58,369 nucleotides of DNA, from IMG/VR virus record IMGVR_UViG_3300028859_000024, positions 1 to 58,369 of that record, one strand, 5' to 3'. The notes below the pieces were generated by a model. It did no database searches. It was not told where the DNA came from and worked only from the letters and a program-made list of their open reading frames with translations. Below are positions 24,186 through 39,910 of this stretch, piece by piece (within the stretch, counting starts at the first letter, position 1; each line of letters starts with the position of its first letter). Source of the stretch: a virus. Made by a program: the position numbers and the translations under genes.

Positions 24186-24193
24186 AATAAATA
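24186..24193 (+). promoter_or_regulatory. Late promoter 5 bp before a start codon
   Basis: AATAAATA (24186-24193), then CTTAT, then ATG at 24199. This is one of six copies of the box-N5-ATG arrangement in the window. Confidence 0.65.
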
Positions 24194-24198
24194 CTTAT

Positions 24199-24858
24199 AT
24201 GCTTATAAATGAATTCTACAAACCGAAAATATCTAAGAGCGCAACTTATGCTATAACGAATCATCTTTTCAATAATCCTCTTAATATTCCATATTTAAAA
24301 AATCAACTTGAAAAATTTGGTTGGAAATTGGAAGGATCCGGTGTTTATAGTTCGGTTTGGAGTAATCCCAAAAAATCATATATCCTTAAAATAAATAAAA
24401 TACCAGATCCTGGATTTGATCATTATGTTTCTGTTATTAAAGGAAGTAGAAATCCACATTTTCCAAAAATTAGTGATAGAAGACAAATATTTATTACAGG
24501 AAGAAGTTATTATGCATATTTAATTGAAAAATTAGAGGAATTTCCAAATAGAGCTACTGCTGAAGATTATGCATCTATGTTCAATTTTGTAATTAATCTT
24601 AATATGGAAGAAAAACCTTTAGAATCACTAATTGAAGAGTATGGAGCAATTCCTGAAATATTCAAAAAACAACCAAAATTAATTAAAGCATTGCGTATAG
24701 TTAGCTATGAATCTAAACCATTTTTTAGGATTGATTTGCATGACGAAAATTTTATGCAAAGAAAAGATGGAACAATTGTAATAACTGATCCATACATTGG
24801 GGGTTATAATGAAACTAGACGAATATTCAAAAACGAGAATACCAGCCAAATTTTCTAA
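24199..24858 (+). CDS. Kinase-like protein 1, tagged N-terminus
   Basis: This 219-aa protein shows a compact kinase-like fold: a glycine-rich loop 'GSGVYSSVWSN' near 51-61, the lysine strand 'SYILKINKI', and the catalytic loop 'DLHDENFMQRKDGT' with 'VITDPY' standing for the metal-binding Asp. It lacks an activation segment and ends soon after that Asp, like its paralogues at 24809, 26416 and 27015. It starts MLINEF after a leaderless late promoter. The frame runs on past the usual end into the start of the next gene (50-bp overlap), so its last 20 residues are a read-through tail. Substrate unknown; protein or small-molecule phosphotransfer are both possible. Confidence 0.7.
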   Translation: MLINEFYKPKISKSATYAITNHLFNNPLNIPYLKNQLEKFGWKLEGSGVYSSVWSNPKKSYILKINKIPDPGFDHYVSVIKGSRNPHFPKISDRRQIFITGRSYYAYLIEKLEEFPNRATAEDYASMFNFVINLNMEEKPLESLIEEYGAIPEIFKKQPKLIKALRIVSYESKPFFRIDLHDENFMQRKDGTIVITDPYIGGYNETRRIFKNENTSQIF

Positions 24859-25399
24859 AATTGTGTTTGATCGCAGTACTGATAAATATACCATAGAAGG
24901 CAAATTAAAAAAATTGGGTTGGACTCTTCTAGGGGCTGGTTATTATAGTACAGTATATTCAAATCCAAAAAAATCTTATGTGTTAAAAGTTAATGATAGA
25001 CAAGATACTGCGTATGCACAATATGTATCTTTAATAAAGAAATATAACAATAAACATTTTCCAAAAATAAGTGATTTGAAATTTATAGAAGTTAATGGTG
25101 GTCGATATTACATATATCTTATTGAGAAATTAGATGATGTACGTTCTGAAATGAAACATTTAGCTAATGTTTTTAGTGAAATAATAGATTGTCCATATTC
25201 ATCACTAACATTTTTTAATACATCTCATACGCAACTTGATTATTTAAAACAAAATCCAGAATTAGTTACAGCACTCAGAATTATTGGAAAATTTAAACAC
25301 AATATCAAAAATCCATATATTTCCAATGACATGCATGGCGGCAATATTATGCAGAGAAAAGACGGAACAATTGTTATAACTGATCCTTATGCAAGCTGA
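24809..25399 (+). CDS. Kinase-like protein 2
   Basis: This 196-aa paralogue starts MKLDEYSKTR. It has 'GAGYYSTVYSNPKKSYVLKV' as loop and lysine strand and 'NDMHGGNIMQRKDGTIVITD' as catalytic loop and metal Asp, ending DPYAS. The HGGN element resembles aminoglycoside phosphotransferase-type loops (H.GN). The start, after GGGGG, lies inside the previous gene. The ART-like gene follows 12 bp later. Together they form a short operon from the late promoter at 24186. Confidence 0.7.
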   Translation: MKLDEYSKTRIPAKFSKIVFDRSTDKYTIEGKLKKLGWTLLGAGYYSTVYSNPKKSYVLKVNDRQDTAYAQYVSLIKKYNNKHFPKISDLKFIEVNGGRYYIYLIEKLDDVRSEMKHLANVFSEIIDCPYSSLTFFNTSHTQLDYLKQNPELVTALRIIGKFKHNIKNPYISNDMHGGNIMQRKDGTIVITDPYAS

Positions 25400-25411
25400 T
25401 GGGAAAATATA

Positions 25412-26218
25412 ATGAAAATCGATGAAATAACAAAAGAGAAATTAGAAGAAGCTGTTATACATGCTGCTGAAATTCAGCATATTAGAGCCCGTGCAAATAT
25501 TGTTGCAGGTTTTTGCGATAGAATGGGAAATTATCCTTTAATATATAGAGCATTTAATGCTACAACACCAGAAACTCCTATTATCAAAGTTACCAATCAT
25601 GAAAATAAAAATTTTGAATATAACGCAAAAGGAATGTTTGCAAGTTCTCTTACAGATATAATGAAAAAATTGGACATAAAAAATCCAACTTTTTGTACTA
25701 TGATCACTCCAAGCGAATTATATTTGTTTCATGGCCAAGCTAGAATTTTTGTTCCTACAGAGAATTATAAAGTTGTTTGGAGTCCAGTAGTGGTTGATAT
25801 TGGTGGTAATACTGTCGCTGGAGAAGATGCAGACAAATATGGAATGATAATTACAGGAAATATGGGGCATATGACAGATGATAGAAGAATTCCAGCATCT
25901 ATGGCATCTACATATAGAGAAGGACTTCCCAAGAATTTTACTAAAAATGAATTAATTTTTGATTGTGATGAATATTATTTAATTAATATTGGAACTTTTC
26001 TTAAAAAATATGTTGGAAAAGCTGCCAAAGAATTGGTGTATTATAGAAAGCATAAAATTCCAGGAATGAATATAGAAGTGAACAATACATTTCCAAGCTT
26101 GAAAGAGGATTTATTTAAAACGAAATTTAGAGATTATAAAACATTGGCATGGTATATACGAAATCCTATGATGAATTATCTGGATTGGCTGGAGAAAATA
26201 AGAAATGAAAATCGATGA
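25412..26218 (+). CDS. ADP-ribosyltransferase-like protein (distant)
   Basis: This 268-aa protein starts MKIDEI. It has 'LIYRAFNA' near 42, then 'FCTMITPSELYLFHGQARIF', a Trp-containing strand 'YKVVWSPVVVDI', and near residue 186 'NELIFDCDEYYLIN'. This order (Arg, a Ser/Thr motif with the strand IF.P, then Glu) parallels the R-S-E pattern in the five ADP-ribosyltransferase-like genes at 31-34 and 50 kb, though the match is weaker. An N-acetyl or other fold is not excluded. It reads together with the kinase-like genes upstream. Confidence 0.45.
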   Translation: MKIDEITKEKLEEAVIHAAEIQHIRARANIVAGFCDRMGNYPLIYRAFNATTPETPIIKVTNHENKNFEYNAKGMFASSLTDIMKKLDIKNPTFCTMITPSELYLFHGQARIFVPTENYKVVWSPVVVDIGGNTVAGEDADKYGMIITGNMGHMTDDRRIPASMASTYREGLPKNFTKNELIFDCDEYYLINIGTFLKKYVGKAAKELVYYRKHKIPGMNIEVNNTFPSLKEDLFKTKFRDYKTLAWYIRNPMMNYLDWLEKIRNENR

Positions 26219-26366
26219 AATTCCAAAATGGAATCTCATTAGAGAATATCCAGAAAGACCGTCTGGAGAAGTTGAAATAAATTTAGAGTACATTGGTAAA
26301 CCAGACACGAGTGATCATTCATTGTGGTGGAATAATGAGAATAAACGAAATAGAACCAAAAATTGA
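26205..26366 (+). CDS. Small tagged protein
   Basis: This 53-aa frame starts MKIDEIPKWN inside the end of the previous gene, which ends MKIDE-like by overlap (14 bp). The rest is polar with two adjacent Trp (LWWNN) and no domain. It reuses the same starting sequence as its neighbour, so the duplicated tag sequence may have been created by the overlap. Real expression is uncertain. Confidence 0.45.
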   Translation: MKIDEIPKWNLIREYPERPSGEVEINLEYIGKPDTSDHSLWWNNENKRNRTKN

Positions 26367-26415
26367 TATCGATTATTATATGGAAAGTTAAAAGATATTA
26401 AAGAGTTAATAAAAA

Positions 26416-27006
26416 TTATGCATAAGGATCAGTTATAACAATTGTTCCATCTTTTCTTTGCATAATATTTCCAGAATGCATATCAATAAAATAGTTATTG
26501 TGTTCAGAACCAACTATGCATAATGCATCAACTAGTTTTGGTTGTTTTTTAAATATGGTAGGAATATGGTTATTAAACAGTTTAGAAATTGAATATTTTG
26601 GATCCGCATTAATAATTGTATTGAAAAAAGTTGAGTAATTATCACCAACAAAATGGCCAGGAATTTTAAATAATTTTTCAATTAAATAAGCACAATAAAT
26701 TTTAGGTCCAATAGCTATTTCTCTCATATCACTTATTTTTGGAAAATGAGGATTTTTACTTTTCTTAATTATATTAACATAATGATCGAATGCTCTATCA
26801 GGAACTTTATTTATTTTAAGAATATAAGATTTTTTAACATTTCCCCAAACTGAACTATAAACTCCTTCATCTAAATATATCCATCCAAATTTTTTAAGAC
26901 GATTTCTTAGTTGCTGAGTATTTCCAGCGCCATAATTGAAATGATAATTTATTTCATTATCAATATCTTTAGATATTTTCGGTTTGTATAATTCATTTAA
27001 ATTCAT
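26416..27006 (-). CDS. Kinase-like protein 3
   Basis: This 196-aa paralogue reads MNLNELYKPKISKD. It has loop 'GVYSSVWGNVKKSYILKIN', then 'HFPKISDMREI', and ends 'IDMHSGNIMQRKDGTIVITD' plus PYA. It is most like kinase-like protein 1 in its first third and lies opposite to it, so the four copies form two inverted pairs. It follows the broken copy 4 by 8 bp and has an AAGGA site. Confidence 0.7.
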   Translation of the reverse strand: MNLNELYKPKISKDIDNEINYHFNYGAGNTQQLRNRLKKFGWIYLDEGVYSSVWGNVKKSYILKINKVPDRAFDHYVNIIKKSKNPHFPKISDMREIAIGPKIYCAYLIEKLFKIPGHFVGDNYSTFFNTIINADPKYSISKLFNNHIPTIFKKQPKLVDALCIVGSEHNNYFIDMHSGNIMQRKDGTIVITDPYA

Positions 27007-27014
27007 AGTTATCC

Positions 27015-27627
27015 TTAGAAGTATGGATCAGTTATAACAATTGTTCCGTCTTTTCTCTGCATAATATTTCCAGAATGCATATCAAAAAATAATCCTGGCA
27101 CATTACTTGTTTCTTTATTTTTTCCAATAATTTGTGCAGCTTTAAATAAATCAAGATGTTTTTCAAAATATTCAAATCCTGCTTTTGTATCATATAATCT
27201 ATAATAATCTTGCTCTATTTTTTCAGAGGAATTTCATAATTATTCATAATAAAATCTAGTCTACTAGCTATTGCTACTCCATATTTTGCCTTATGTAATT
27301 TCTCAATAAGATATATGTAATATCGACCACCATTAACTTCTATAAATTTCAAATCACTTATTTTTGGAAAATGTTTATTATGCAATTTTCTTATTATTGA
27401 CACATAATAAGCATAAGCTTTATCCGGTTGTTTATTGATTTTTAGAATATATGGTTTTTTAGGATTTGTATATACTGCTGCAAAAGACCCTCCGTTAAAA
27501 AATTCCCAACCAAGTTTTTCTAATTTTTGGTCCATATTCAATGAAGATGATGAAGTACGAACTTCATCATCAACTACTTTAAAAACTTTTACAGGAACTC
27601 TTGGTTTTGAATATTCATCTAGTCTCA
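27015..27627 (-). pseudogene. Kinase-like protein 4, -1 frameshift
   Basis: The start MRLDEYSKPR is at 27627 behind AAGGA. The frame has the loop 'GGSFAAVYTNPKKPYILKIN' and stops at a TAG at 27215, right after a run of six A (27223-27218 on this strand). One base back, the frame continues as EQDYYRLYDTK to 'FDMHSGNIMQRKDGT' and VITDPYF, ending at 27015. The two halves join to a normal 200-aa kinase-like protein. Either the gene carries an A-run indel, or the ribosome shifts by -1 at the A run. Confidence 0.6.
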
Positions 27628-27636
27628 TATTTTTCC

Positions 27637-30600
27637 TTAGTGAAACATTAAGTATGTACCTTTTACTGTAGGATCTGTTGCTGAAACGTCTCCTTCTCCA
27701 GGAAGAACTGTAACATTCCATTTTGGTTTAGTGCCGAGCGTTTTATTCATCTTCTTTTCCACAAATTCATCATAACTTAAAATAGTATCAACATCTATAT
27801 CATATTTTTCAGCCAATCTATCTTTTAATTCATTCCATTCTTCTGGACCTCTAAATTGTGTGGCTCCTGCTGCATTTTTAATAAGCTTAATACCTTTGCG
27901 TGCAATTAAATCATAGAATAAATCTTTGGGCACTACTTGGCTATGTTTAACTGCACTTATATTAACTAAATTGCTTTGCGTTGAAGATGCACCAGCACTA
28001 AAATTAATTACAAAATTATCTGGCTTGTCCTCTGAATTTGCAACATCAGCTATTTTGGTGTAAGCATAAAACAAATTATTTGGGAATTCTCTAGCAACAT
28101 CCCAAGCCATATCCATATATTCAGGACTGAAGAAGTCTCCTGAATCATGCCACCTTATTGAAACTTCAACATCTCCTTTATTAAAATCTTTATCTGTAAA
28201 ATTATCCCATTTAGCGATTGCTTTTGAAATTTCACCAATTAATTCTGCTTTAAATCCTTCTGGATCATTCAATAAATAATTTAATGTTTGCGCAGACTTC
28301 ATGCTAACTCCAGGAAACATAATATAGCTTCCTTTCATTGCGAAACAATAATTTTTGCAAATACCTGCACCAGGGCAAGTATCAACAACTACAAATTCTC
28401 CTGTTTCTTCATTAACTGACAATCCTTTTAATGCTGGCAAACCAACATTATAATAAACTGTGGCAGTACCATTACTGTGTTTCATCTTCTCATTCTGTTT
28501 AAGTAAGCCACTAGGTCTTTTAGTAATAGCATCTCTTAAAGCATCAAGATCATACTTATCGCCATTTTCATCAATAATAGGAACTGAACCATCTGCATTC
28601 TTTTTTACATTGCTTGGGTGAATATATGGCATAGTGTATGGATCAAGTTTATTTTTCTTCTTGAATACTGTTCTATCAAGATAATCCTGCATTTCTTTAT
28701 GACTTGCGTTTCGATATTTAGAACCAAGACCAAATTCTCCAGCTTCTCCCAACATCTCGTCTTCCAATTCAGTTTCTTCTGGATTTTCGCCATCCAAAAA
28801 TTGATCGAGAGACATAACAGTTAGTCCATTGAGCATACCTTCAGATATTTTTGATAGTTTAATTTTCACTTCACATCCTGGAAATTGTTGTTTAAGGGCT
28901 GATATTGCTTGCTGTATATTCATATTGGGAACACTTTTCTTTCCAATATAAGTCATATCATGCCCATCTTCGTCTTGAACTCCTATGTATCCATATTCAT
29001 ATTTTGGGCCATAAAAACCACCATCTTTATAAACTGTAAATTTTCTTGATTCTTTTATTTCAGAAAATCGCATTTTATCTCCAATTTTGTTTACACATGC
29101 TTCAACAATAAATTTTTGACTATTTCTTCCAATCGAATTAAATTCTTCTGGAGTTATCCATTTAACAGCTTTTATTTCGTTACCTGGTTTATCAAAATCA
29201 ACTGGGTCTTTAACTTCTCCAATATAAATTGTCATTTCAGAAGATTCTGTGTAACCTTTTATTAAACCTTTCCACCCAAGTTTAATAAATTTAATATTTG
29301 ACTGCTTAACCCCACACTCTTCGTTTCCTTCTCGTAAAGCAGCTTGTAAATCTGTTTCTTTTCCATCGATATGCCCTTTAGCTATCATCCACTTGCTTCC
29401 GCCATAAGTTGGATCACTGCTCATAACAAACATCATTCTGAGTTTTCCAAAGTTATCAAAATAATAAGGAATAAATCCAGCTTTTCTTATTATTGATTTA
29501 TCAAACGCTTCTTGTAATTTTTTAACTGTCTCTCCTTTCACTTCACAATCCGAGGAACAATATTTTTGATTCGCTGAGTGAACATTCTTAAATTCGCTTT
29601 CACAAGTTGGGCACTTCTTATTCTTTGCTTTGCTTGCGTTTGCAAACTCTCTATATGTTAATTTTGGAGTTTCTTTTGATTCTTGCATATGAAATGCCAT
29701 AACACTTCCTGGAAGTGGAACTTTTTGTCTTGGAGTTAACCATTCTTCCAATTCTGCCATAATATATTCTTTATTTCCAGTCACATATAAATGATCATTA
29801 TTTATTCCACGAGCATCACACTCTAATTTAAATTTATTTGTTGGAGAAGTAACATATGGAATTATTTGTTTAAGTCTATAAATTGTGTCATCATCATATT
29901 TTCCAAACTCAATTATTGTATTATCTCCGCAATCCCAACCACCCTGTCTAATTCTAATTGCTCCTTCACTTAATCTACAAATATCATAACCACGTTTTGC
30001 ACGAATTTCTGAATGCCATGCTGCAATATATACTTTATTAGTGATTGTTATTAATCCTGCTCCAAATCCAAGTTTATCTTCTGGCCCCAACAAAGATAAT
30101 TTTTTTAATGATCTTGGATTTATTCTGGCAGAAATTGGATATTTGTTTACAGCTTCACTAATTCCCATACTATGTAACATATTACTATCAGCTTTGTTTA
30201 TAGTTTTCCCGTGATGAATATAGCCTCGTACATCATCAAGAACATCTAAAAGTTCTGGTTTAATATGAGTCTTTTCTGCTTCTTCTTGCGCTTCTTTATT
30301 CCACTTATCAATATATCCTTTCTTTTTTGCTTCAGCATTTAAAAGCTTTATTCTTCGATGAGCTTCTTCTCTGTCCACTCTTGGAAATTCCTCATTATTA
30401 AAAATTTCATAGGCGTAATCAATTTCATTTTTAAGCCATTCTTCATTGGATGGATTATAATCATCTTTATATTCAGAAATAATATTGCTATTGGAGCGAT
30501 CTATGGAACAACCTTGAAATTTCGTGCTCAAAACTTTTGATTTAGCCATTAATTTGACATTAATTGTTGGCTTTTTTATGAATTGAATTGCACGACCATT

Positions 30601-31098
30601 TTGTTGAACAGCAGCAAGTTGCACAGCTTCGCTTGGATTGTCGATGTATTCAATTGCCCAACCATCTTGTCGAACAGCAGCCATTTGCACAGCTTCGCTT
30701 GGTTTGTCGATGTATTCAATTGCACGATAATTTCGTTGAATAGCAGCCATTTGCACAGCTTCGCTTGGCTTGCTGATGTATCCAATTGCATAACCATTTT
30801 GTTTAACAGCAGCCATTTGCACAGCTTCGCTTGGATTGTCAATCCATTCAATTGCATAACCATCTCGTCGAACAGCAGCCAGTTGTGCTTTTTCATTTGA
30901 TGAATATTTATTATTTTCCGCAATGATATTTTTATTAGTCATATTTTTGCTGCATCCCATGAATTTTGTGCTCAAAACTTTTGATTTTTTTGGTTTTGCT
31001 CCAAGAATTGGGCCAAGATTGTCAACTTTATCTTGTGGGCCAAGCCACTTTGGATTTCTGTATGGTTTTGTTGATCCCAATAATGATTTCTTTTTCAT
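27637..31098 (-). CDS. Giant mosaic protein: DUF4116, zinc finger, Nudix, GP88-like domain
   Basis: This 1153-aa protein is a chain of separate modules. Residues about 66-185 are five DUF4116 units. C496-x2-C ... C514-x3-C518 is a zinc-finger-like site. Residues about 535-650 are a Nudix hydrolase with the box 'GHIDGKETDLQAALREGNEE'. An internal MRFSEI near 680 resembles the tag that starts neighbouring genes. Residues about 850-1150 match the GP88 family, with 'CPGAGICKNYCFA'. The C-terminus runs into the kinase-like gene 4. Late promoter TATAAATA lies 30 bp upstream with a GGAG site. Likely late, virion-associated or injected; its role is unknown. Confidence 0.75.
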   Translation of the reverse strand: MKKKSLLGSTKPYRNPKWLGPQDKVDNLGPILGAKPKKSKVLSTKFMGCSKNMTNKNIIAENNKYSSNEKAQLAAVRRDGYAIEWIDNPSEAVQMAAVKQNGYAIGYISKPSEAVQMAAIQRNYRAIEYIDKPSEAVQMAAVRQDGWAIEYIDNPSEAVQLAAVQQNGRAIQFIKKPTINVKLMAKSKVLSTKFQGCSIDRSNSNIISEYKDDYNPSNEEWLKNEIDYAYEIFNNEEFPRVDREEAHRRIKLLNAEAKKKGYIDKWNKEAQEEAEKTHIKPELLDVLDDVRGYIHHGKTINKADSNMLHSMGISEAVNKYPISARINPRSLKKLSLLGPEDKLGFGAGLITITNKVYIAAWHSEIRAKRGYDICRLSEGAIRIRQGGWDCGDNTIIEFGKYDDDTIYRLKQIIPYVTSPTNKFKLECDARGINNDHLYVTGNKEYIMAELEEWLTPRQKVPLPGSVMAFHMQESKETPKLTYREFANASKAKNKKCPTCESEFKNVHSANQKYCSSDCEVKGETVKKLQEAFDKSIIRKAGFIPYYFDNFGKLRMMFVMSSDPTYGGSKWMIAKGHIDGKETDLQAALREGNEECGVKQSNIKFIKLGWKGLIKGYTESSEMTIYIGEVKDPVDFDKPGNEIKAVKWITPEEFNSIGRNSQKFIVEACVNKIGDKMRFSEIKESRKFTVYKDGGFYGPKYEYGYIGVQDEDGHDMTYIGKKSVPNMNIQQAISALKQQFPGCEVKIKLSKISEGMLNGLTVMSLDQFLDGENPEETELEDEMLGEAGEFGLGSKYRNASHKEMQDYLDRTVFKKKNKLDPYTMPYIHPSNVKKNADGSVPIIDENGDKYDLDALRDAITKRPSGLLKQNEKMKHSNGTATVYYNVGLPALKGLSVNEETGEFVVVDTCPGAGICKNYCFAMKGSYIMFPGVSMKSAQTLNYLLNDPEGFKAELIGEISKAIAKWDNFTDKDFNKGDVEVSIRWHDSGDFFSPEYMDMAWDVAREFPNNLFYAYTKIADVANSEDKPDNFVINFSAGASSTQSNLVNISAVKHSQVVPKDLFYDLIARKGIKLIKNAAGATQFRGPEEWNELKDRLAEKYDIDVDTILSYDEFVEKKMNKTLGTKPKWNVTVLPGEGDVSATDPTVKGTYLMFH
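30524..30987. repeat. DUF4116 block flanked by direct repeats
   Basis: A perfect 20-bp direct repeat (30524-30543 and 30968-30987; GTGCTCAAAACTTTTGATTT) encloses the 66-bp tandem repeats of the DUF4116 units inside the 1153-aa gene. The repeats encode matching peptide stretches KSKVLSTKF.GCS on both sides. The unit next to 30543 (TTAGCCATTAATTTGACATT and onward) is nearly identical to the end of the free-standing gene at 8871-8910. Confidence 0.6.
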
Positions 31099-31128
31099 AT
31101 AGTTACTCCAATAATTTATTCTCTTTAG

Positions 31129-31136
31129 TATTTATA
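31129..31136 (-). promoter_or_regulatory. Late promoter of the giant mosaic gene
   Basis: TATAAATA reads leftward (31136-31129) and overlaps the stop of the gene ending at 31132. Transcription would start near 31123. The leader holds TTGGAG about 9 bp before the ATG at 31098. Confidence 0.7.
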
Positions 31137-32019
31137 GTTTTTCAAATAAATCAAAATTATGTATATATAATTCTCTGTCAATGGCAATATATGCTCCGTG
31201 AATCCACACATCATAGCTATTTTCTAAAGCCCATTTCAAATTTTTATTGGTCAATTTATTGTTTACTATGAATTTTTTAGCAATTATTTCATCTGTTCCT
31301 AACTGTTTCAATTCTCTTCCAAGATCAATAATTGCACGATCAACTACTGAACCAGATAACATAACCTTTTCGTCGTTAGTAAAAGAATTGTACGTCTTAA
31401 TAATATTTCTTATTACTGTAGTAATATTAAAATAATTTACTTTTTTGGAATAAAACTCATTAAGAGTATACCAATATTTTAAAAATTTTTTTATATTTTC
31501 TGAATATCCATGGACATCGTATTTTTTACGATTCCAAAAATCAGAAATTTGGTCTACATATGTGCGTAAATTTTCGTCAATAGCTTCTGTTGGAAATATA
31601 TAACTTGCCCCTGAACAACAAGTATGTCGTTTACTATACGCAAAAGTAAATCCATTTATAGGGAATATGACATATAATTCACCCCATGGTTCAGCCATTT
31701 CAGGATCACTATTACAAAATAAACTATTTCCTCGAAGAGCAGTAAAACCAGTCATTTGCATATATTTGTCTACTATTTTAGTAAGCTCAGTAGATATTTC
31801 TCCTTCAATACTTCTTCTATTTTTTCTTGGATATCCCATAAAAATACTTGGTGAGTTTTCTCTAACACCTCGAACGAGATCATTTGCTCCTTTCATTTTC
31901 AAAAATTCTGAACAATGATCTTTTATCCATAGAGATAAAGATTCAACATTAGCATTGATTTCTTTAACATCTCCTGAACTTAGTTTTGACATATCCAAAT
32001 CAAACTCTCGGAGTAGCAT
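31132..32019 (-). CDS. ADP-ribosyltransferase-like protein 1 (degenerate)
   Basis: The start chosen is MLLREF at 32019, 8 bp after an AGGAG; a longer frame to 32127 has no signal. The 295-aa product shares with its neighbours the run 'GFTALRGNSLFCNS', the strand 'GELYVIFPINGF' and the end 'YDVWIHGAYIAID'. In the neighbours the first strand has YRG or YHG and the last motif is EILIHG; here the Arg and the Glu of these motifs are not in place, so it may be inactive. It is longer than the others by an insertion with Cys-rich 'RHTCCSG'. The family has an ADP-ribosyltransferase-like arrangement (Arg, Ser-x-Ser, Glu). Confidence 0.6.
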   Translation of the reverse strand: MLLREFDLDMSKLSSGDVKEINANVESLSLWIKDHCSEFLKMKGANDLVRGVRENSPSIFMGYPRKNRRSIEGEISTELTKIVDKYMQMTGFTALRGNSLFCNSDPEMAEPWGELYVIFPINGFTFAYSKRHTCCSGASYIFPTEAIDENLRTYVDQISDFWNRKKYDVHGYSENIKKFLKYWYTLNEFYSKKVNYFNITTVIRNIIKTYNSFTNDEKVMLSGSVVDRAIIDLGRELKQLGTDEIIAKKFIVNNKLTNKNLKWALENSYDVWIHGAYIAIDRELYIHNFDLFEKL

Positions 32020-32815: not shown

Positions 32816-33411
32816 AAAGTTTTTGTCCACTGTAAATATGTATTTGAATGTCTAGTTACCATTAATTCTGATATTGCAATAAATTCTCCACCAAGATATA
32901 TTTCTTTTCCTTGTTGTAAAGCCAATGATAATCCCATATTTTCCCTAAATTCATACTTATCAGCAAAATCATTGGGACTTAAAGAATGAAGATCATACAT
33001 CATTTCTGTATATCTTATATCTGTAACTAAATCGCAAAAATCACTCCAAGTATATCTAAAACCATTCTTTGGAAAAATTTGATAAACTGCACCATACTCA
33101 GATGCTGTTGTAATATTTCCTATACAGAACAAACTATTGCCACGCAATTGATGAAATCCTGCCAATGATAATTTTTTATCTATCTCATATTGTTCTTTAT
33201 AAGTAAGCGATAATGGTTTTCTATCTGTATGTGGTTCCCCTACAAAAATATTACTTGGTGCTGATTGAAATCCATGATACATTGGTCCAGCTTCTTCATA
33301 AAATTTTAAAAATTCTGAGCATAATACTGACACTTCTTCCAAAGCTTTTTTAAGAATTAATCCTTGCTGTTCAAAAGCAGAAGCATCGATATGTAGTTCA
33401 CATATTTTCAT
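32812..33411 (-). CDS. ADP-ribosyltransferase-like protein 3
   Basis: This 199-aa copy starts MKICELHIDAS. It has 'PMYHGFQS' (first strand), 'HQLRGNSLFC', 'GAVYQIFPKNGFRYTWSDF' and 'KEIYLGGEFIAISE'. The Glu of the last motif is present (E in KEI), the first residue is His in place of Arg. It overlaps its neighbour by ATGA, and the Dps-like gene precedes it by one base, so all are in one leftward operon. Confidence 0.6.
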   Translation of the reverse strand: MKICELHIDASAFEQQGLILKKALEEVSVLCSEFLKFYEEAGPMYHGFQSAPSNIFVGEPHTDRKPLSLTYKEQYEIDKKLSLAGFHQLRGNSLFCIGNITTASEYGAVYQIFPKNGFRYTWSDFCDLVTDIRYTEMMYDLHSLSPNDFADKYEFRENMGLSLALQQGKEIYLGGEFIAISELMVTRHSNTYLQWTKTL

Positions 33412-33849
33412 TTATTTTACTGCTTGTAATGTTGCTCTTAAAAACCAACCAAACTTTTCTTGTTGATCTGCTAATCCTTCAATATAATTTTGAAGACCAA
33501 TATGATTTACTGCCAATTTATCAACTTCAGTTAGCATTTCCAATAATTTATCATTGTCAATCAATAATTCATGAATCATTTCATTTGCTGGCAATACTTC
33601 TTGAAAATCTTCTATAACTGATAAACTAAGTAATTCATTTACGGACGATGGAACAAATATATCCAATGCTCTAAGTTGCTCACCAATACTGTCAAAATTA
33701 CTTTCAAGATTTTGATATATTTTTTCAAGCAATAAATGTAACTCGAAAAATCTTGGACCAGTTATATTAAAATGCCCAATATGAAATTTAATTCCTAAAT
33801 GAAAAACAGTTGCAGTCGCCACTTTCAGACTCATTTCTAAGTTATTCAT
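33412..33849 (-). CDS. Dps/ferritin-like protein
   Basis: This 145-aa protein has the Dps core: 'FHIGHFNITGPRFFELH' (two His and the trademark FxxTGP turn), 'NFDSIGEQLRALD' and the C-terminal 'EKFGWFLRA'. Dps proteins form 12-mers that bind iron, often using DNA, and protect it from oxidation. A phage copy inside a string of ADP-ribosyltransferase-like genes is unusual. The N-terminus MNNLEMSLK lacks the I-x-E tag of its neighbours. It may protect phage DNA or be packaged. The start follows AGGAG. Confidence 0.72.
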   Translation of the reverse strand: MNNLEMSLKVATATVFHLGIKFHIGHFNITGPRFFELHLLLEKIYQNLESNFDSIGEQLRALDIFVPSSVNELLSLSVIEDFQEVLPANEMIHELLIDNDKLLEMLTEVDKLAVNHIGLQNYIEGLADQQEKFGWFLRATLQAVK

Positions 33850-34526
33850 TATATACTTCTCCTATTACTAAATATTATTTTATTTCCTAATTTCTCGCTC
33901 ATTGCGATATAGTCACCATGAATTAAAATTTCATTATTTCTAATAATTGCATGAGTTAAATCTGTATTCTTGAAACCATAATCTCTAATAAAATCAGTTG
34001 AAGAAAGCTTATATAAATTTTCTTTAAATATTTCTGCTTTATTAATATCTTCTTGTGATGGTGTCTCACCCCAAGGAGTGGGAGTCAAAGCTCTTACATA
34101 TTCGTCATATAAATCAATAGCAGTATTACACCATGTATATGAAAATCCATCCAATGGAAATATAATATGTAGGTCACCATATTTTTGCGCTGATAGTTTA
34201 GAAGAACAACAAAAAATGCTGTTTGATCTTAATGCTTCAAACCCACTTTTTTGTAATTTACTATCTATTTGCTTCTGTACTGAAGATGGTATATCTATTG
34301 GGTGTCTATCAGATGGGGATTTTCCGAAAAATACATCTCCATCTTTGAAATTATATATATTACTGCCAAAATATCGTGTGATGCCGCGATACAATACTTT
34401 TCCATATTCTCTATACAAAGACATAATTTCACTGCAATGCTTATTTAAGAATATTAAAATTTTAGTCTCATCTTCTTTTACATAAGCTGAAAAACCTTTC
34501 GATTTGTCAAATTCATTAAGCAGCAT
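33849..34526 (-). CDS. ADP-ribosyltransferase-like protein 4 (most intact)
   Basis: Start MLLNEFDKSK at 34526, 9 bp after GGAGC; it overlaps the GNAT-like gene. This 225-aa copy has the clearest motifs: 'LYRGITRYF' (Arg47), 'ALRSNSIFCCSS' (Ser101, Ser103) and 'NNEILIHGDYIAMSE' (Glu199). These correspond to the Arg, Ser-x-Ser and Glu of R-S-E ADP-ribosyltransferases such as T4 Alt, which modifies host proteins after injection. The Ser-x-Ser, strand YGDLHIIFPLDGFSYTW and Glu segments agree with the copies at 31132, 32000, 32812 and 50192. Confidence 0.65.
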   Translation of the reverse strand: MLLNEFDKSKGFSAYVKEDETKILIFLNKHCSEIMSLYREYGKVLYRGITRYFGSNIYNFKDGDVFFGKSPSDRHPIDIPSSVQKQIDSKLQKSGFEALRSNSIFCCSSKLSAQKYGDLHIIFPLDGFSYTWCNTAIDLYDEYVRALTPTPWGETPSQEDINKAEIFKENLYKLSSTDFIRDYGFKNTDLTHAIIRNNEILIHGDYIAMSEKLGNKIIFSNRRSI

Positions 34527-34785
34527 GTAATTTTGCTCCGTATTTTTTAGCAATTTCTTTCATTTTTACATACATCATATGTTTCAAATTTGTATTCTTC
34601 CAATCATTATCTACAAATACATAAAAAATTTTCCAATCATTTTTATTATTGGTTGTTAAAAACATACCAACTTCGCCATATCCTTCTCCGCTAACTCTCA
34701 ATTGATACGATTTCTTTTGAAGTTCTCCTTTCCACTTCAATTTAGTTATATCTAACGTCGAATTGTTAACTTCGCTTATTCTCAT
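34516..34785 (-). CDS. Small GNAT-like protein fragment, tagged
   Basis: This 89-aa protein starts MRISEV and ends 'YVKMKEIAKKYGAKLHAA', which resembles the acetyl-CoA binding loop and helix of GNAT acetyltransferases ('KHMMYVKMKEIAKKYG'). The segment 'SGEGYGEVGMFLTTN' would be a preceding strand. It is half the usual length, so it is likely a truncated or partner domain. The same type of domain occurs twice in the 1005-aa protein upstream, so it could be a broken-off copy. Confidence 0.55.
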   Translation of the reverse strand: MRISEVNNSTLDITKLKWKGELQKKSYQLRVSGEGYGEVGMFLTTNNKNDWKIFYVFVDNDWKNTNLKHMMYVKMKEIAKKYGAKLHAA

Positions 34786-34828
34786 ATTTTACTCAATTCA
34801 ATACTTAAATAATTTTCTCCATCATGCT

Positions 34829-37800
34829 TTAATTTTTGCACTGGATATCTTTCAGAGCTTTTCTAGCATCCACAGATAAAATATAATCACTGTCTACATA
34901 ATCAAAACCTAATTCTTTTGCAACGTTAATAAGTTTATCATATAACATTTGTCCAAGACCAGTCGATTGCCAATTATGATTAGATGTTAATTGACTTCTT
35001 GAAATTTTTAATGTTTTCTTGGTTATCTCATTAGAAGTTATAAAACCTTCTACTTCATTAGTTTCTGGATTTCTTGCCCTAATTATTATTCCTAGGTGTT
35101 CCTCATCACTATTCCAATCTTTAAATGGTCTTTTATCAATTTCCCACTTTAATTTGCTTATATCTTCATCTCTATCATTAAAACTTTTGTAGCCAAAATC
35201 TGGTGCCTCATTAATTATATTCCATAAAGCTTTTTTTAATTTATGATAATAACCTATATTTCTAAATTCTTTTTTAGTAAATCTCCAATATTTGTCATTT
35301 TCTGTTCTTGGATTAGAGTCAGACATAAAACTTCCATGTTTCCAATAAATGATCCAAGCGACAGGCATGTTGTTAACATACATCATAGCCATTTTACTTA
35401 TTTTACCTTTATTTCCTGTTTGTAATATCCAACCAAATTCTTTTTGCGCTGTAAATGTAGGAACATATAATTTATATTTTGTAGCTTCTTTGATTAATTT
35501 TATAATTTCATCATTGCTTTTACCAACTTTTATAACTTCTTGTGCAATAGATTCGCTGATAAAATAACTATCTGATTTATGTGGAGTATAACTATTTCTT
35601 ATTTCCCAAGGAGCTTTATTATAATTTAAAGATGATTGATATATTAATAAATCATTTAATTGAAATTTTACATTTGGTATTTTTACAAAATAATGTTTTT
35701 TATTATCATATCTTTCATATTTTCCAAATGGTAAGTCAATATCATAATATTTTTCTCCATTATTAAAATCTACTCTTACCCAAAAATGAAGTTCATGCAA
35801 TTTTGGATTTTTATGGCCAACCACGTATGAATCAATATTCTTTATATTTTTTAATACACAATCAGAAATTGACTCTGCAATACTATCACACAAACCAACT
35901 TCTCCTCCTTCCCATTTATCATATATTTTTTGTGCAGCTTTAATCATTTGTGGTCTAAGTTGAAATAATTTAGCTCTATAGGAATAATCAAATGATTCTT
36001 TTAATTGAACTTTACTTAGATCAATTTCATAATACCCTTTATTAAATTCTTTGCCTTCTTTGTACTTAACTGTATATCTTGCTGCCAATCTTTTCCACGC
36101 TTTTTCAGCAGCCGCTGATCTATCAGTATCTGATCGAAAATATTTATATCCTAATTGTTTGGCTTTTTTAATCGCTTTGTCATACAGAATTTGCCCAAGT
36201 CCAGTACCTTTCCATTTTAAATTAATTCTAATAAAAGAAATTACTAATGTTTTTGAATTAACTTCCACCAAATCAATATCTGCCACACTAACACCAGAGG
36301 AGTTATTTACAATTATCCAAAATCCACCAATTCCGTCATTATTACTGGGTATTACTGAATAATCAAATTTTAATCTTGAAAGCTCTTCATCTCTATTATT
36401 AAATTTTGTATAATTAAAATCAGGTTCTTCATTTATAACTGACTCATAAAAATTTGTTTTATGCAATTGTCTATCTTTGAAATCCCATTTATAATGTTGA
36501 AAATATCCATTACCTGATCCAACAGTAACATCTATTTTAACATCCACTTTTATTCTATGAATAATATTCATAATTAGCTTATAAGTACTATCACTCAATT
36601 TTTGTATTGTTTCTATATAAATTTTACCCGGAGCATAAATTGGACGGGAAACTCTTACACATCCAATTTTATATATTCCTTCATAACCATTATATCCCAA
36701 TCTTGTAGCCATTGTTTCGTGAGTTGTTCCTGGAACAAGTGGAACAAAAGTTTTATCTGGAAATAGCCAGCCACTTGAATCTATTACAGATTTTTTGTTT
36801 CCAAGTTTTAATTTATATTCTAATCCAGCTTTAGATTCATTAATTGGTTTTTTGCAAGGAACATATGCTCTAATTGTTTTATCACCACGAATTTTAGCAG
36901 AAATAGTCCTATGAAATCCATCTAATATTTCCCCTCTTTTTGTTAATACTATTGGAGGAAAAGGAGTTATTTCATCAGAATATTGGTCATCATCTTCATC
37001 TAAATCATTTATGTTATCTAATTTTTTTATAGAAACATTTTGTAACTTATACCAGACACTATCCATTCTATCCCAAATATCAGAGCCAGCATCAATCTCT
37101 TCCTGTTGGTGCAAATCATATATCATACGTTGAACATCCCCATCTAACATAAATTCTGGATATTCATTCGCTTCTATATTATAAACGTTTTTTGGTCTAT
37201 AAATCACGTCATATATATCTTCATTTATTGGAGCAAGCAAAACTTGATCAAATATTTTTTTAATCTCTCCAACTTTCATAGAATTTGGATATAATTCTCG
37301 AATAATAGTATATCTATCGCTTTCATTAGAAGAAGTATACATCTTTCTTATTTGAGAAGCAGAGGTTATCTCTTGTCCCAAAACTCTATACTTATGGACA
37401 GGAATAATTACATAATATGCATGTTTATTCAAAGTTTCTAGTGGAGTAGAAGGCCCAGGATATGGTAGTAAAAATGACAGGGTCCCATCTTTCTTTATCG
37501 TTGGTCCGAGTCTTTCTGCATCTTTTTCACTTAAACCAAATATAACAATAGTATTGTTTGAATCATATTTACTAGTTATCTCCAATGCTTTATAAGGACT
37601 TGTTACTTGTACAAATCCATTTTTAGGTATGCCAGCTTGCACTGCTAAAAATTGTTTTTGCTTAAATGAAAATGGTCGCTCACTTATATTATTAGTGGAA
37701 GCTATATAATGATGTGCATTTGGAAATTTTGAAATCAAATATTCCCAGCAATATAAATGTTGTGGAAGGAATGGGTGAAACCCACCGCTAAAAATTGTTG

Positions 37801-37846
37801 CAGTTGTTTGTTTTATTTTTTCTTCAAACAAATTTTGTAATCTCAT
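34829..37846 (-). CDS. Giant mosaic protein: nucleotidyltransferase, ParB-like and GNAT modules
   Basis: This 1005-aa protein starts MRLQNLFEEK after a late box. Residues about 15-215 are nucleotidyltransferase-like ('SGGFHPFLPQH' replaces the usual G.F.P.H.GH; 'SERPFS' follows). A ParB/sulfiredoxin-like segment 'PIVLTKRGEILDGFHRTISA' lies near 300-330. Two GNAT-like regions end in 'GTGLGQILYDKAIKKAKQLGY' and 'STGLGQMLYDKLINVAKELG'. A domain with 'WVRVDFNNGEKYYDIDLP' lies between. No transmembrane segment is seen. It looks like several accessory proteins joined, as in the 1153-aa neighbour. It is plausibly a late, packaged protein. Confidence 0.7.
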   Translation of the reverse strand: MRLQNLFEEKIKQTTATIFSGGFHPFLPQHLYCWEYLISKFPNAHHYIASTNNISERPFSFKQKQFLAVQAGIPKNGFVQVTSPYKALEITSKYDSNNTIVIFGLSEKDAERLGPTIKKDGTLSFLLPYPGPSTPLETLNKHAYYVIIPVHKYRVLGQEITSASQIRKMYTSSNESDRYTIIRELYPNSMKVGEIKKIFDQVLLAPINEDIYDVIYRPKNVYNIEANEYPEFMLDGDVQRMIYDLHQQEEIDAGSDIWDRMDSVWYKLQNVSIKKLDNINDLDEDDDQYSDEITPFPPIVLTKRGEILDGFHRTISAKIRGDKTIRAYVPCKKPINESKAGLEYKLKLGNKKSVIDSSGWLFPDKTFVPLVPGTTHETMATRLGYNGYEGIYKIGCVRVSRPIYAPGKIYIETIQKLSDSTYKLIMNIIHRIKVDVKIDVTVGSGNGYFQHYKWDFKDRQLHKTNFYESVINEEPDFNYTKFNNRDEELSRLKFDYSVIPSNNDGIGGFWIIVNNSSGVSVADIDLVEVNSKTLVISFIRINLKWKGTGLGQILYDKAIKKAKQLGYKYFRSDTDRSAAAEKAWKRLAARYTVKYKEGKEFNKGYYEIDLSKVQLKESFDYSYRAKLFQLRPQMIKAAQKIYDKWEGGEVGLCDSIAESISDCVLKNIKNIDSYVVGHKNPKLHELHFWVRVDFNNGEKYYDIDLPFGKYERYDNKKHYFVKIPNVKFQLNDLLIYQSSLNYNKAPWEIRNSYTPHKSDSYFISESIAQEVIKVGKSNDEIIKLIKEATKYKLYVPTFTAQKEFGWILQTGNKGKISKMAMMYVNNMPVAWIIYWKHGSFMSDSNPRTENDKYWRFTKKEFRNIGYYHKLKKALWNIINEAPDFGYKSFNDRDEDISKLKWEIDKRPFKDWNSDEEHLGIIIRARNPETNEVEGFITSNEITKKTLKISRSQLTSNHNWQSTGLGQMLYDKLINVAKELGFDYVDSDYILSVDARKALKDIQCKN

Positions 37847-37851
37847 ACTTA

Positions 37852-37859
37852 TATTTATT
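37852..37859 (-). promoter_or_regulatory. Late promoter 5 bp before a start codon, leftward
   Basis: AATAAATA (37859-37852), TAAGT, then ATG at 37846. It lies back to back with the late promoter at 37868. Confidence 0.65.
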
Positions 37860-37867
37860 CTTTTTCA

Positions 37868-37939
37868 TATAAATACAAATGCGAGTCACGATGATTTCGA
37901 CATCTACTCGCTCTAAAGACCACTGGAGGTCATTCAGCT
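37868..37939 (+). promoter_or_regulatory. Late promoter plus structured leader, third copy
   Basis: TATAAATA (37868-37875) with expected start near 37881. The leader folds as GCGAGT/ACTCGC (37881-37886 with 37906-37911) around GATG/CATC (37890-37893 with 37901-37904), then GACC/GGTC (37918-37921 with 37928-37931) with TGGAGG in the hairpin, ending CAGCTATG. Base pairs differ from the other two copies but pairing is kept. Confidence 0.7.
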
Positions 37940-38846
37940 ATGACTATTTATACTACTGCATATTTTATATCAAAATCAAATTCATAATTTTAAATATAAT
38001 TATAGTAAATCTATATACATTAATGCAAAAAACAAATTAATAATTATTTGCCCAATTCATGGAGAATTTTTGCAATCTTCTCATGCACATTTATCAGGAA
38101 ATGGTTGCCCAAAATGCTGTGGATTTAATAGAACATTTACAGAATTTGTTAACTCTGCAAATATTATTCATAATTTTAAATATTCTTATATTTCTAAAAC
38201 TTATTACAACGCCAAAAAGAAAATGGATATAAAATGTAAGGAACATGGAATTTTTAAACAAGCCCCCGGCGTGCATTTACAAAAAATTGGTTGTCCACAA
38301 TGTGGATTTAACAGTATTTCTAAAACAAAAACAAGCAATACAAAAGAATTTATAACAAAAGCTATTATCATACACAAAAATGAATTTATTTATGATAATG
38401 TAAATTATTTAACTTCACGCCAAAAAGTTGAAATAATATGTAAGAAGCATGGCTCTTTTTGGCAAAGCCCAAATAAACACTTAATGGGAAGAAAATGTCC
38501 AAAATGTAAAAGAAGTTCTGGAGAATTAAAAATTATAAAAACGTTGGAATCATTACCAATAGAATTTGATGAACAAATAAGAATTACATTATGCAAAAAT
38601 AAATATCCATTACCTTTTGATATAGGGATTATTAAAAATAATAAAATTATAGGATTAATTGAATACCAAGGAAAACAACATTATGAACCTATTTTTCAAA
38701 AATATTTTGAATCTACTAAGAAAAATGATTATATAAAATATAATTATTGTAATATTAATAATATTCCATTATTAATAATTCCATATTGGAATAAAGAAAA
38801 TATTGATAATTTAGTAAAATCTTTTATATCTAATTTACAACCTTAA
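37940..38846 (+). pseudogene. Homing endonuclease of the zinc-repeat family, frameshifted near its start
   Basis: The leader-linked ATG at 37940 reads MTIYTTAYFISKSNS and stops at 37987. The rest of the protein continues in another frame from about 37983 (IHNFKYNYSKSIYIN) to 38846. It has three zinc-ribbon repeats (CPIHG...C..C, CKEHG...CPQC, CKKHG...CPKC) and a C-terminal domain with 'PLPFDIGI' and 'IEYQGKQHY', like the 22691 protein. Three codons of spacing expected at the junction match its siblings if a few bases are lost, so an indel near 37975-37985 broke the frame. An internal start at 38070 would give 258 aa. Confidence 0.65.
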
Positions 38847-39348
38847 ACAATGGCCCTTTGGTTATAGGGCTATCTGTATAAGCCACTTCTCCAGAATGAT
38901 ATTCATATTCTGTATTTTGATTATAAAGTTGTTTATTTAATTGTATTATCCATTCTGGTTTTAAATGCCTGGCTCTATATTTATAAAACAATAAATGAGT
39001 TTCAACTGGCACATCAGGTTCTAATCCTTCATCTTGAAGTTCATCGAGTGCCATCATTCTATTTCTTCCTTCATGACCAATAACTATGGATGGAATAGAA
39101 TAATCATCATTCTCCCATCTATTAGGAATACTTATTTGAAGGAATGGAGCGCCAATAGTCCCACCATTTTTAATATAATTTTTTATATAGTCAACATTTC
39201 CTAAATCGTTTCGACTTCTATAATATGCTAGGCTTAAAAATGTGGATGGATACATTAGCACTCTAAGACCAAGATAATCAATTTCTTGATTATATGAAAC
39301 TCCTCCTAATCCATTTTCATTATCGATAATGACTTCATTAATCTTCAT
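38830..39348 (-). CDS. ParB-like domain protein, tagged
   Basis: This 172-aa protein starts MKINEVIIDN. It contains 'GAPFLQISIP' and 'PSIVIGHEGRNRMMALDEL', the ParB/sulfiredoxin-like signature G(H)E(G)R.R..A. Such proteins bind nucleotides or DNA, or cut DNA. It ends in KGPLFKVVN and its 3' end overlaps the frameshifted endonuclease tail-to-tail. It starts 5 bp after a perfect late box and has no Shine-Dalgarno site. Confidence 0.65.
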   Translation of the reverse strand: MKINEVIIDNENGLGGVSYNQEIDYLGLRVLMYPSTFLSLAYYRSRNDLGNVDYIKNYIKNGGTIGAPFLQISIPNRWENDDYSIPSIVIGHEGRNRMMALDELQDEGLEPDVPVETHLLFYKYRARHLKPEWIIQLNKQLYNQNTEYEYHSGEVAYTDSPITKGPLFKVVN

Positions 39349-39353
39349 ACTTA

Positions 39354-39361
39354 TATTTATA
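39354..39361 (-). promoter_or_regulatory. Perfect late promoter 5 bp before a start codon
   Basis: TATAAATA (39361-39354), TAAGT, ATG at 39348. The box matches the T4 consensus exactly. Confidence 0.75.
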
Positions 39362-39385
39362 ATTTAATTCAAAAAGAAAAACCAC

Positions 39386-39910
39386 TCAAATTGGGTGGCT
39401 TTGTAATAATTTATTCAATTTCTTAATTACATCTTCATATTTGTCATTTTTATAGAGAATTCCCACCCCACCAGCTTTATTCCACGCATCAATATTTCTA
39501 CTATCATCATCTATAAGAATATTACCATCACCAGCATATTTTTCTTTATCTCTCTCAAAAATAACAGGAATATCCAAATTATGTTTTTTCAACCATAATT
39601 TTTTACCTGCAATACAATCATTAGTATGTGGTTCTCCAACTGGTCTAGTTAAGATGGTAACTGGAATGTCTCTCTGAGTAAACCAATGATATATTTTTTT
39701 ACCATTGCTTTCCCAAGCCATATTAGTAAATTCTTTTTTAATATCTGCATGATCCACAAAATTTTTCCAATACTTATTATGATATCCAGAATCTATAAAA
39801 TCTTGAACATCAATATTATTGAAATCAGAGGCAGCTTTTACACAATCTACAAGCACTCCATCCAAATCAATGTATATTTTTTGATCTTCTTTAATTTCAT
39901 ATAGTCTCAT
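39386..39910 (-). CDS. HAD-family 5'-nucleotidase/phosphatase-like protein, tagged
   Basis: The start chosen is MRLYEIKEDQ at 39910, since the late box and 5-bp spacer fit it; the frame extends upstream to 39934 without signals. The 174-aa product has 'IDLDGVLVD' (Asp15, Asp17; nucleophile and acid), 'ILTRPVG' (motif II) and 'NILIDDDSRNIDAW' (motif IV). This is the pattern of deoxyribonucleotide phosphatases. It may hydrolyse nucleotides or a phosphoprotein. It ends near the window's other tagged genes. Confidence 0.75.
   Translation of the reverse strand: MRLYEIKEDQKIYIDLDGVLVDCVKAASDFNNIDVQDFIDSGYHNKYWKNFVDHADIKKEFTNMAWESNGKKIYHWFTQRDIPVTILTRPVGEPHTNDCIAGKKLWLKKHNLDIPVIFERDKEKYAGDGNILIDDDSRNIDAWNKAGGVGILYKNDKYEDVIKKLNKLLQSHPI

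Follow-up and report, generated by a model that had tools for sequence, protein, structure and literature searches.

The window analysed here is the complete IMG/VR record IMGVR_UViG_3300028859_000024, 58,369 bases long, which is a fragment of a larger phage genome. Between 24.0 and 40.2 kb it contains an island of genes for kinase-like, ADP-ribosyltransferase-like (ART-like) and other proteins, many of which share a short N-terminal sequence, M-[KR]-[IL]-x-E-[ILVF], called here the tag, which we consider as a candidate signal for loading of proteins into the phage head. The comparison of family-B DNA polymerases, in which the nearest sequences were those of Sinorhizobium phage Phosso (44.6%) and Agrobacterium phage Atu_ph07 (42.7%), followed by Vibrio phage 2.275.O and the 121Q/GAP32/CBB/RaK2 group, assigns the source to the jumbo phages of the T4 superfamily. 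A polymerase identical to that of the window is carried by an 80-kb contig (the twin), and a nucleotide search with 27–45 kb of the window found no match in the named phages.

Tagged genes of the window and their predicted activities

The data showed that 14 of 64 genes called in the window open with M-x-[IL]-x-E, while the same pattern is present at only 3 of 286 internal methionines (Fisher 5.7e-9). The tagged genes, designated below by the position of their ATG, are concentrated in the island, where they make up 13 of 19 genes, as compared to 1 of 45 outside (Fisher 2.6e-8); hence, the motif, whose frequency across all genes had been proposed as a check, is not common everywhere in the window. 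When the window proteins were clustered after removing their first 8 residues, the tagged ones fell into 7 of 52 clusters (about 1e-6 in a binomial comparison with chance). These were five ART-like paralogs, including 50785 outside the island, four kinase-like paralogs, and the clusters of 25412, 26205, 34785, 39348, and 39910. The motif is shared by non-homologous proteins and, by its own definition, places [LI]-x-E near the N-terminus in 14 of 64 proteins, both of which are properties of the capsid-targeting sequence (CTS) of T4 type. The original prediction, made from the letters of this DNA, gave 13 of the 14 starts exactly, while the MRLDEY gene, listed at 27627, has its ATG at 27628; its description of the tagged genes as unrelated was overstated, as 9 of the 14 fall into two paralog families.

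Table 1. Coordinates of the tagged genes, the associated large proteins, and the promoter-like motifs in the window
Feature	Position	Strand	Basis
Tagged kinase-like protein, MLINEF	24199..24858	+	phrog_15752, T7-kinase-like
Tagged kinase-like paralog, MKLDEY	24809..25399	+	phrog_15752
Tagged protein without assigned family, MKIDEI	25412..26218	+	start sequence; missed by ART-like profile
Tagged 53-aa open reading frame, MKIDEI, possible remnant	26205..26366	+	start sequence
Tagged kinase-like paralog, MNLNEL	26416..27006	-	phrog_15752
Short tagged kinase-like paralog, MRLDEY	27215..27628	-	phrog_15752
1153-aa multidomain protein: DUF4116 repeats, NUDIX, GP88	27637..31098	-	Pfam
Tagged ART-like protein, MLLREF	31132..32019	-	start sequence, paralog comparison
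Tagged ART-like protein, MKINEI, with C-terminal capsid-junction tail	32000..32815	-	junction pattern
C-terminal module LEE/SASCGSTSSGSIATVNG...QFFGGDP...basic tail, resembling the cleavage junction of relatives' major capsid proteins	32003..32164	-	
Tagged ART-like protein, MKICEL	32812..33411	-	start sequence, paralog comparison
Tagged ART-like protein, MLLNEF	33849..34526	-	start sequence, paralog comparison
Tagged 89-aa protein, MRISEV, weak GNAT resemblance	34516..34785	-	resembles C-terminal part of the 1005-aa protein
1005-aa protein with GNAT domain, start MRLQNLFE	34829..37846	-	Pfam
Tagged protein, MKINEV, no family match	38830..39348	-	Pfam, PHROGs
Tagged 5'-3' deoxyribonucleotidase-like HAD protein, MRLYEI	39386..39910	-	phrog_2643
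Fifth tagged ART-like paralog, MKIFEV, outside the island	50192..50785	-	modelled structure
T4-type late promoter core ATAAATA, 5 nt before ATG of 24199, possibly leaderless	24187..24193	+	
ATAAATA, 5 nt before ATG of 37846	37852..37858	-	
ATAAATA, 5 nt before ATG of 39348	39354..39360	-	
ATAAATA, 5 nt before ATG of 39910	39916..39922	-	

Two giant proteins of the island carry related sequences, both of which had been pointed out correctly. The 1005-aa protein begins with MRLQNLFEE, which has no Glu at residue 5 (Glu5) but has L-F-E at residues 6–8, a second form of the tag found in relatives. The 1153-aa protein, a candidate polyvalent protein in which DUF4116, NUDIX, and GP88 are joined in one chain, has MRFSEIKE at residue 676 (nt 29073, minus strand), directly after NUDIX and with GGAG a few bases upstream. 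Its position in the sequence would fit two readings: a tagged GP88 protein may have been fused here, leaving the motif as a scar, or translation may begin internally and yield a tagged product of 478 aa.

To characterize the ART-like proteins, 94 eligible sequences were aligned, in which the putative catalytic R39 is kept in 80 rows, S85 in 91, and E167 in 89. The residue at position 5 is Glu in 84 of these rows, Asp in 3, Gln in 2, and a gap in 5, so that Glu5 is conserved to an extent similar to R39. The structure of 50785 was modelled on a 52-row alignment hand-picked from the first 60 of the 94 rows (5 window rows and 47 of 55 others, the 8 omitted being 3 untagged and 5 tagged); Glu5 is present in 51 of 51 cases there, for which 84 of 94 is the fair figure. 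The mean predicted local distance difference test score of the model was 90.9, and only 63 for residues 1–10, which are flexible as modelled. Among nine PDB matches listed at Z of at least 2, the best was 2aua (Z 7.2), whose function is unknown, while the others (Z 2.1–4.4) include rifampin ADP-ribosyltransferase, diphtheria toxin, and pertussis toxin S1. Further effectors among the listed matches are presumably also ARTs or related proteins. A Foldseek search of the PDB with this model found nothing at E <= 0.001, and in viral model space several of the best matches were proteins of a tandem array of Atu_ph07. No Pfam family matched the window paralogs above cut-off, and 0 of 5 had an Alt-type Pfam match, although no direct comparison with Alt was made. 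Because the PDB matches are weak but the R, S, and E residues are conserved, the assignment of the five paralogs as ADP-ribosyltransferases is likely rather than proven.

The other tagged proteins were compared with protein families. The T7-kinase-type profile phrog_15752 matched 4 of 4 kinase-like paralogs (best 2.5e-16), which are thus, by profile, similar to T7-type phage protein kinases; against PDB sequences the kinase profile gave only E >= 0.23, which was not used. The match of 39910 to the 5'-3' deoxyribonucleotidase family (phrog_2643, 5.5e-21) backs its HAD label, and in HAD proteins from three phages a tagged extension precedes the first strand. While the kinase-like and HAD labels are thus supported, the GNAT-like label of 34785 is weak (Pfam E 0.019, below cut-off; the protein falls into one cluster with the C-terminal region of the 1005-aa protein), and 39348, proposed as ParB-like, has no family match in Pfam or PHROGs. 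The protein 25412 was also considered as a diverged ART, but the 52-row ART-like profile misses it at E <= 10. The 53-aa frame 26205 may be a remnant.

The motif ATAAATA, taken as a probable late promoter by the authors of the CBB study (PMC5259590), precedes the ATG of four genes by exactly 5 nt (Table 1). At this distance transcription would therefore start at or beside the ATG, and judging from the sequence leaderless late mRNAs are possible. Within 60 bp upstream, the motif is enriched at tagged genes in Atu_ph07 and in the relatives designated G009 and G004 (p about 1e-3 or less each). No enrichment was seen in the window (3/14 versus 9/50, p 0.7, with 37846 counted as untagged) or in the G017 and Vibrio 2.275.O records; the pooled counts are 25 of 82 tagged versus 143 of 1652 other genes. 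The late-promoter motif that had been proposed for the island is therefore present at four genes of the set, without enrichment at tagged genes of the window.

Several other genes were noted. Short repeats are common to the genes at 8556-8795, 8856-9425, and 27637-31098, the third of which contains DUF4116. A Dps-like gene, recognized by eye, lies at 33412-33849 amid the tagged row and is untagged (MNNLEMSL). The genes at 22691-23839 and, inside the island, 38070-38846 are related (41% over 204 aa) and contain zinc-finger-like repeats; by eye they are perhaps homing endonucleases. Genes that resemble QueE (14797-15666), GTP cyclohydrolase I (16693-17367), and TGT/DpdA (17597-19117), assigned by eye with no family search, suggest 7-deazaguanine DNA modification.

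The tag in related phages and its two forms

To see how widely the tag is retained, ART-like and kinase-like relatives were taken from IMG/VR, where the first list held the best 80 of 95; the gene caller covered 60–85% of the DNA of the record sets, and a few starts were wrong. Among 134 deduplicated ART-like proteins 71 carry the strict motif and 27 a near form with an early cleavable Glu, while among 34 kinase-like proteins 26 are strict, 2 near, 2 have another early site, and 4 have none. Residues 8–21 of the ART-like proteins diverge while the Glu remains conserved. In the pooled loci, which consist of the window and the IMG/VR loci fetched via ART-like or kinase-like relatives or the polymerase, 150 of 1178 proteins are tagged as compared to 47 of 4465 internal methionines, and with one protein per cluster 25.3 of 608 versus 6.9. 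The tag is enriched over internal methionines in G009 (20/258), G017 (9/69), G004 (17/370), and Atu_ph07 (18/554; Fisher <= 3e-4 each). The numbers were 14/733 in G005 and 11/419 in Vibrio 2.275.O, and no enrichment was found in a 30-kb stretch of G001 (1/16).

The tagged proteins of relatives are also diverse. Of 20 from G004, G005, G009, and G017, 10 matched Pfam at E <= 0.01; the three matches above the curated cut-off were ART-PolyVal twice and GP88, with ART-PolyVal, nucleotidase, GNAT, metallopeptidase, and AAA among the seven weak ones. A stretch VD[VC]QPGY follows soon after the tag in proteins of two different phages, L246 14535 (G004), which has no Pfam match, and L116 12704, members of a family without assignment.

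The loss of Glu5 is often accompanied by a Glu at residue 8. The clearest case is Atu_ph07 CDS 53-63, 11 tandem genes starting with M[RK]W.[QD]L.E or similar, with Gln or Asp at residue 5 and Glu at residue 8. In ART-like and kinase-like proteins with hydrophobic residues 3 and 6, Glu8 is present in 16 of 23 sequences lacking Glu5 and in 16 of 109 having it (p 3.4e-7), and with Atu_ph07 excluded in 7 of 14 lacking Glu5 (p 0.005). In nine record sets a hydrophobic-x-E site ending at residues 8–10 was found in 33 of 49 starts with Asp, Gln, or Asn at residue 5, as compared to 6 of 41 internal methionines, a control which also took in the G001 stretch (p 5e-7); the site was present in 24 of 69 starts with Glu5 and in 6 of 78 other starts of that shape. 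The result persisted without Atu_ph07 (17/32, p 8e-4). Because the compared sequences are related by descent, all these p values overstate independence. These data suggest that the conserved item is one Glu two residues past a hydrophobic residue near the N-terminus, rather than Glu5 itself. If a Glu-specific prohead protease has to cleave at this place, one would expect [LIF]-x-E to arise at residue 8 where Glu5 is lost. In T4, the protease gp21 recognizes L/I-x-E and cleaves behind it; targeting survives when Asp replaces the residue at the cut position, but processing is blocked (PMC9026906). Tagged proteins have slightly fewer internal [IL]-x-E sites in each of the 6 record sets (0.96 as compared to 1.16 per 100 aa, Poisson 0.004), a difference that may come from composition.

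Links to the phage head and weighing of the explanations

The tag was further compared with the head genes of relatives. All 6 named relatives encode the S77 prohead protease, and of 15 contigs searched for it 6 had a match, including 3 of 3 of those longer than 300 kb; the 15 were drawn from contigs carrying ART-like or kinase-like relatives or the polymerase of the twin. The prohead protease, a search for which elsewhere in the genome had been proposed as a check of the original prediction, was thus found in relatives and not in the window or twin. A protein of about 75–80 aa near the protease carries the strict tag in 6 of 8 relatives read (Atu_ph07 MKLTELF, Vibrio MKLVELF, G009 MVLNELF, G017 MQLKEMF, G005 MTLNEF, G004 MNITEMF) and near forms in the other two (Phosso MRYNEF, CBB MLDEIF). 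We take its place to correspond to that of T4 gp67. In G009 the gene of this protein is adjoined, on the same strand, by four consecutive tagged genes, two of them ART-PolyVal, while the protease, scaffold, and capsid genes of the head cluster lie further along.

The second link is a sequence resembling the cleavage junction of the capsid protein. In the capsid proteins of eight relatives (Atu_ph07, Phosso, Vibrio 2.275.O, GAP32, CBB, G004, G009, and G017) L-x-E is followed by.A..G[AST]T[ST][AS]GN[IV]A, the predicted cut falling after the Glu; in RaK2, 121Q, and G005, whose capsid N-termini were examined by patterns only, the junction patterns had no match. The same junction occurs near the C-terminus of the window ART 32815 (LEE/SASCGSTSSGSIA) and of the last gene of the Atu_ph07 array, and a similar one directly behind the N-terminal tag in G009 (MRLKEFCGTSSGSIS) and G004 (MRLSQIKETASAGATGAGAI). 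Small proteins of 52–65 aa centred on the junction (E.AS.G.T.AG.IA) were found in Phosso, Vibrio 2.275.O, 121Q, and CBB; their positions include L054 11532, L062 16477, L080 18248, and, in CBB, gp293 (L193 33937).

Published virion data concern two of the relatives. In the Atu_ph07 virion 131 proteins were detected, among them 29 of the 46 products of the CDS 31-76 cluster (PMC6102473). We found the tag in 13 of these 46, including the 11 array genes CDS 53-63, while the 29 is a cluster total, not matched to individual genes; the CDS numbers were checked at two points, the end of the 36th at 29,080 and the primase-helicase gp70, which is the 70th. In CBB, the virion list includes CBB_299 with 2 peptides (PMC5259590, Table 4), and this protein (MRFSQITE) is the one clearly tagged protein among the 95 CBB genes read.

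Together, these observations make it probable that M-[KR]-[IL]-x-E-[ILVF] serves as a tag for capsid loading and processing, carried by enzymatic cargo that is injected with the DNA. For the uptake, cleavage, injection, and targets of the tagged proteins we infer the following course from the genes. Late in infection, tagged genes would be expressed together with head proteins, and the short, flexible tag with its hydrophobic residues 3 and 6 would promote uptake by the prohead core. The S77 (T4 gp21-like) prohead protease would then cut behind the Glu of [ILF]-x-E, which is residue 5 in most tagged window proteins and residue 8 in the forms with Asp or Gln at residue 5, and would thereby free the enzyme inside the mature head. 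The ART-like, T7-kinase-like, nucleotidase, and other enzymes would reach the next host along with the DNA and work on that host ahead of any phage gene expression.

Other explanations account for part of the data. An uncut binding or addressing signal, or one directing the proteins elsewhere (tail, membrane, phage compartment, chaperone, or protein turnover), is unlikely; the i,i+3 hydrophobic spacing by itself would fit a docking helix, and CBB virion proteins at large are without an early site. However, a docking motif would tolerate Asp or Gln at residue 5 without Glu8, and it does not account for the [LIF]-x-E that arises at residue 8 where Glu5 is lost; also against it are Glu in 84 of 94 aligned ART-like rows, the tagged ARTs in a head gene cluster, and the tagged protein of about 75 aa near the protease in relatives. 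That the start is functionless and shared through paralogy or N-terminal exchange among neighbouring genes we regard as very improbable. Although two families hold 9 of 14 tagged window genes and tandem arrays are common, the cluster counts (7/52 in the window, about 25/608 pooled) disfavour pure paralogy; moreover, the Glu is conserved where residues 8–21 diverge, the HAD proteins of three phages have the tagged extension ahead of the first strand, and 98 of 134 ART-like members retain the tag or a near form.

There is hardly any probability left for a signal in DNA or mRNA at the start codon, such as leaderless late mRNAs or AT-rich translation starts. In its favour, the spacing of ATAAATA to ATG is exactly 5 nt in 11 of 25 motif-bearing tagged genes; however, this spacing also occurs at 16 untagged genes, the same residues are found in tagged genes behind ribosome-site-like sequences, and a DNA-level signal is disfavoured by codon diversity, as synonymous codons vary at residues 2, 3, 5, and 6, including in a genome of 57% G+C. 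Chance or wrong choice of start codons, for which the incomplete coverage of the gene caller and the few wrong starts could speak, is similarly far-fetched in view of the internal-methionine controls in the window and in four relatives.

Several observations weigh against a head-loading tag. The S77 protease and the gp23 capsid protein had no match in the window or the twin, both of which are fragments. The tag is not enriched in Phosso (6/547) or the searched part of 121Q (3/373). Of the 134 ART-like proteins 4 have another early site and 32 none; some of the untagged members are fragments or have wrong starts, and others have apparently real starts, such as MPAKKTN. The best match of the model to a known ART is the weak one to Arr (Z 4.4 over 85 residues). 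The Glu5/Glu8 result leans on Atu_ph07 (16/17) and G005 (9/11), the others together giving 8 of 21. Tagged proteins keep internal [IL]-x-E sites, which are only mildly depleted, and the prepeptide of 5 residues would be shorter than those of T4, which have 7–65 residues (PMC9026906). Finally, an early [ILVFM]-x-E at residues 5–12 is not enriched among CBB virion proteins (7 of 31 detected versus 10 of 64 not detected). This test used 95 annotated genes, 93 from two 50-kb regions, where two genes are cut at a region end, and 2 from a third that are listed by mass spectrometry; it took in 31 of 55 proteins so listed, 24 being outside the regions read. The tag as a general mark of virion proteins in this clade was rejected on this result.

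A capsid-targeting and prohead-protease tag on probably injected enzymes, which had been proposed from the window, thus gained good comparative support from Glu5 conservation, the Glu5/Glu8 replacement, the ARTs in the head cluster, the capsid junction on an ART, and the S77 protease in relatives, while the late-promoter link and the unrelatedness of the carriers went too far. For a wider proposal the odds seem to us evenly balanced: that many jumbo phages on the Atu_ph07/RaK2 side of the T4 superfamily have a common, modular head-loading code marking about 10–30 proteins per genome as the injected set. It would consist of an N-terminal hydrophobic-x-[E/D/Q]-hydrophobic tag with its Glu site at residue 5 or 8, sometimes with a second, capsid-junction copy, C-terminal or adjacent to the tag, and many of the cargo proteins would be ARTs and kinases.

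Comparison with known head-packaged proteins

Most jumbo-phage genes have no known role, and it is largely unknown which of their products are injected. If the tag acts as proposed, it would be readable from sequence and give a testable list of injected proteins, it would explain the large tandem ART-like and kinase-like arrays as first-strike effectors against the host, and it would provide a set of natural, short head-loading signals. The claim that such tagging is undescribed was too broad: a leader common to several T-even internal proteins is well established (PMC9026906, PMC12373910), and the packaging of phage ARTs into virions had already been predicted in 2022 (PMC9503650). Judging from searches of one open-access library, in which no description of such a tag in these phages was found, the short tag and its spread over jumbo-phage ART-like and kinase-like families are new, and so are the exchange of Glu5 for Glu8 and the presence of a capsid-junction module on effectors.

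The closest known system is the CTS of the T4 internal proteins IPI-III, which are processed by gp21. Both are short N-terminal sequences with an [LI]-x-E site on otherwise unrelated proteins, and the relatives of the window have T4-type head genes and the S77 protease, with the late-promoter motif at several tagged genes. In contrast to the ten residues of the T4 leader, the tag has five to nine with a different sequence, M-[KR]-[IL]-x-E-[ILVF], and it is carried by large enzyme families rather than small internal proteins; uptake and cleavage are known for T4, while here they are predicted from genes alone. T-even internal proteins with the shared leader are injected and active against type IV restriction (PMC12373910). 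In phage P1, an N-terminal packaging signal within the first 30 residues sends DarB, which counters restriction, into the head (PMC9024508), but this is a single protein, and the available part of that source mentions no shared short motif.

The ART-like cargo resembles T4 Alt, a head-packaged ADP-ribosyltransferase with an N-terminal prepeptide. Alt starts with MELITELF, where I-T-E at residues 4–6 followed by L-F corresponds to the tag layout shifted by one. It is also processed C-terminally (PMC9026906), as the capsid-junction tail found here would predict. The window proteins differ from Alt in having no family match to it, in forming many tandem paralogs, and in their size of about 200–300 aa versus 682. 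In the ART-PolyVal and other polyvalent proteins the similarity extends to relatives and giants, as two tagged proteins of the G009 head cluster are ART-PolyVal and the giants at 27637 and 34829 combine several domains or probably do. The packaging of such proteins was predicted from context, by fusions and gene neighbourhood (PMC9503650), whereas here it is suggested by a short tag together with a cleavage-site pattern.

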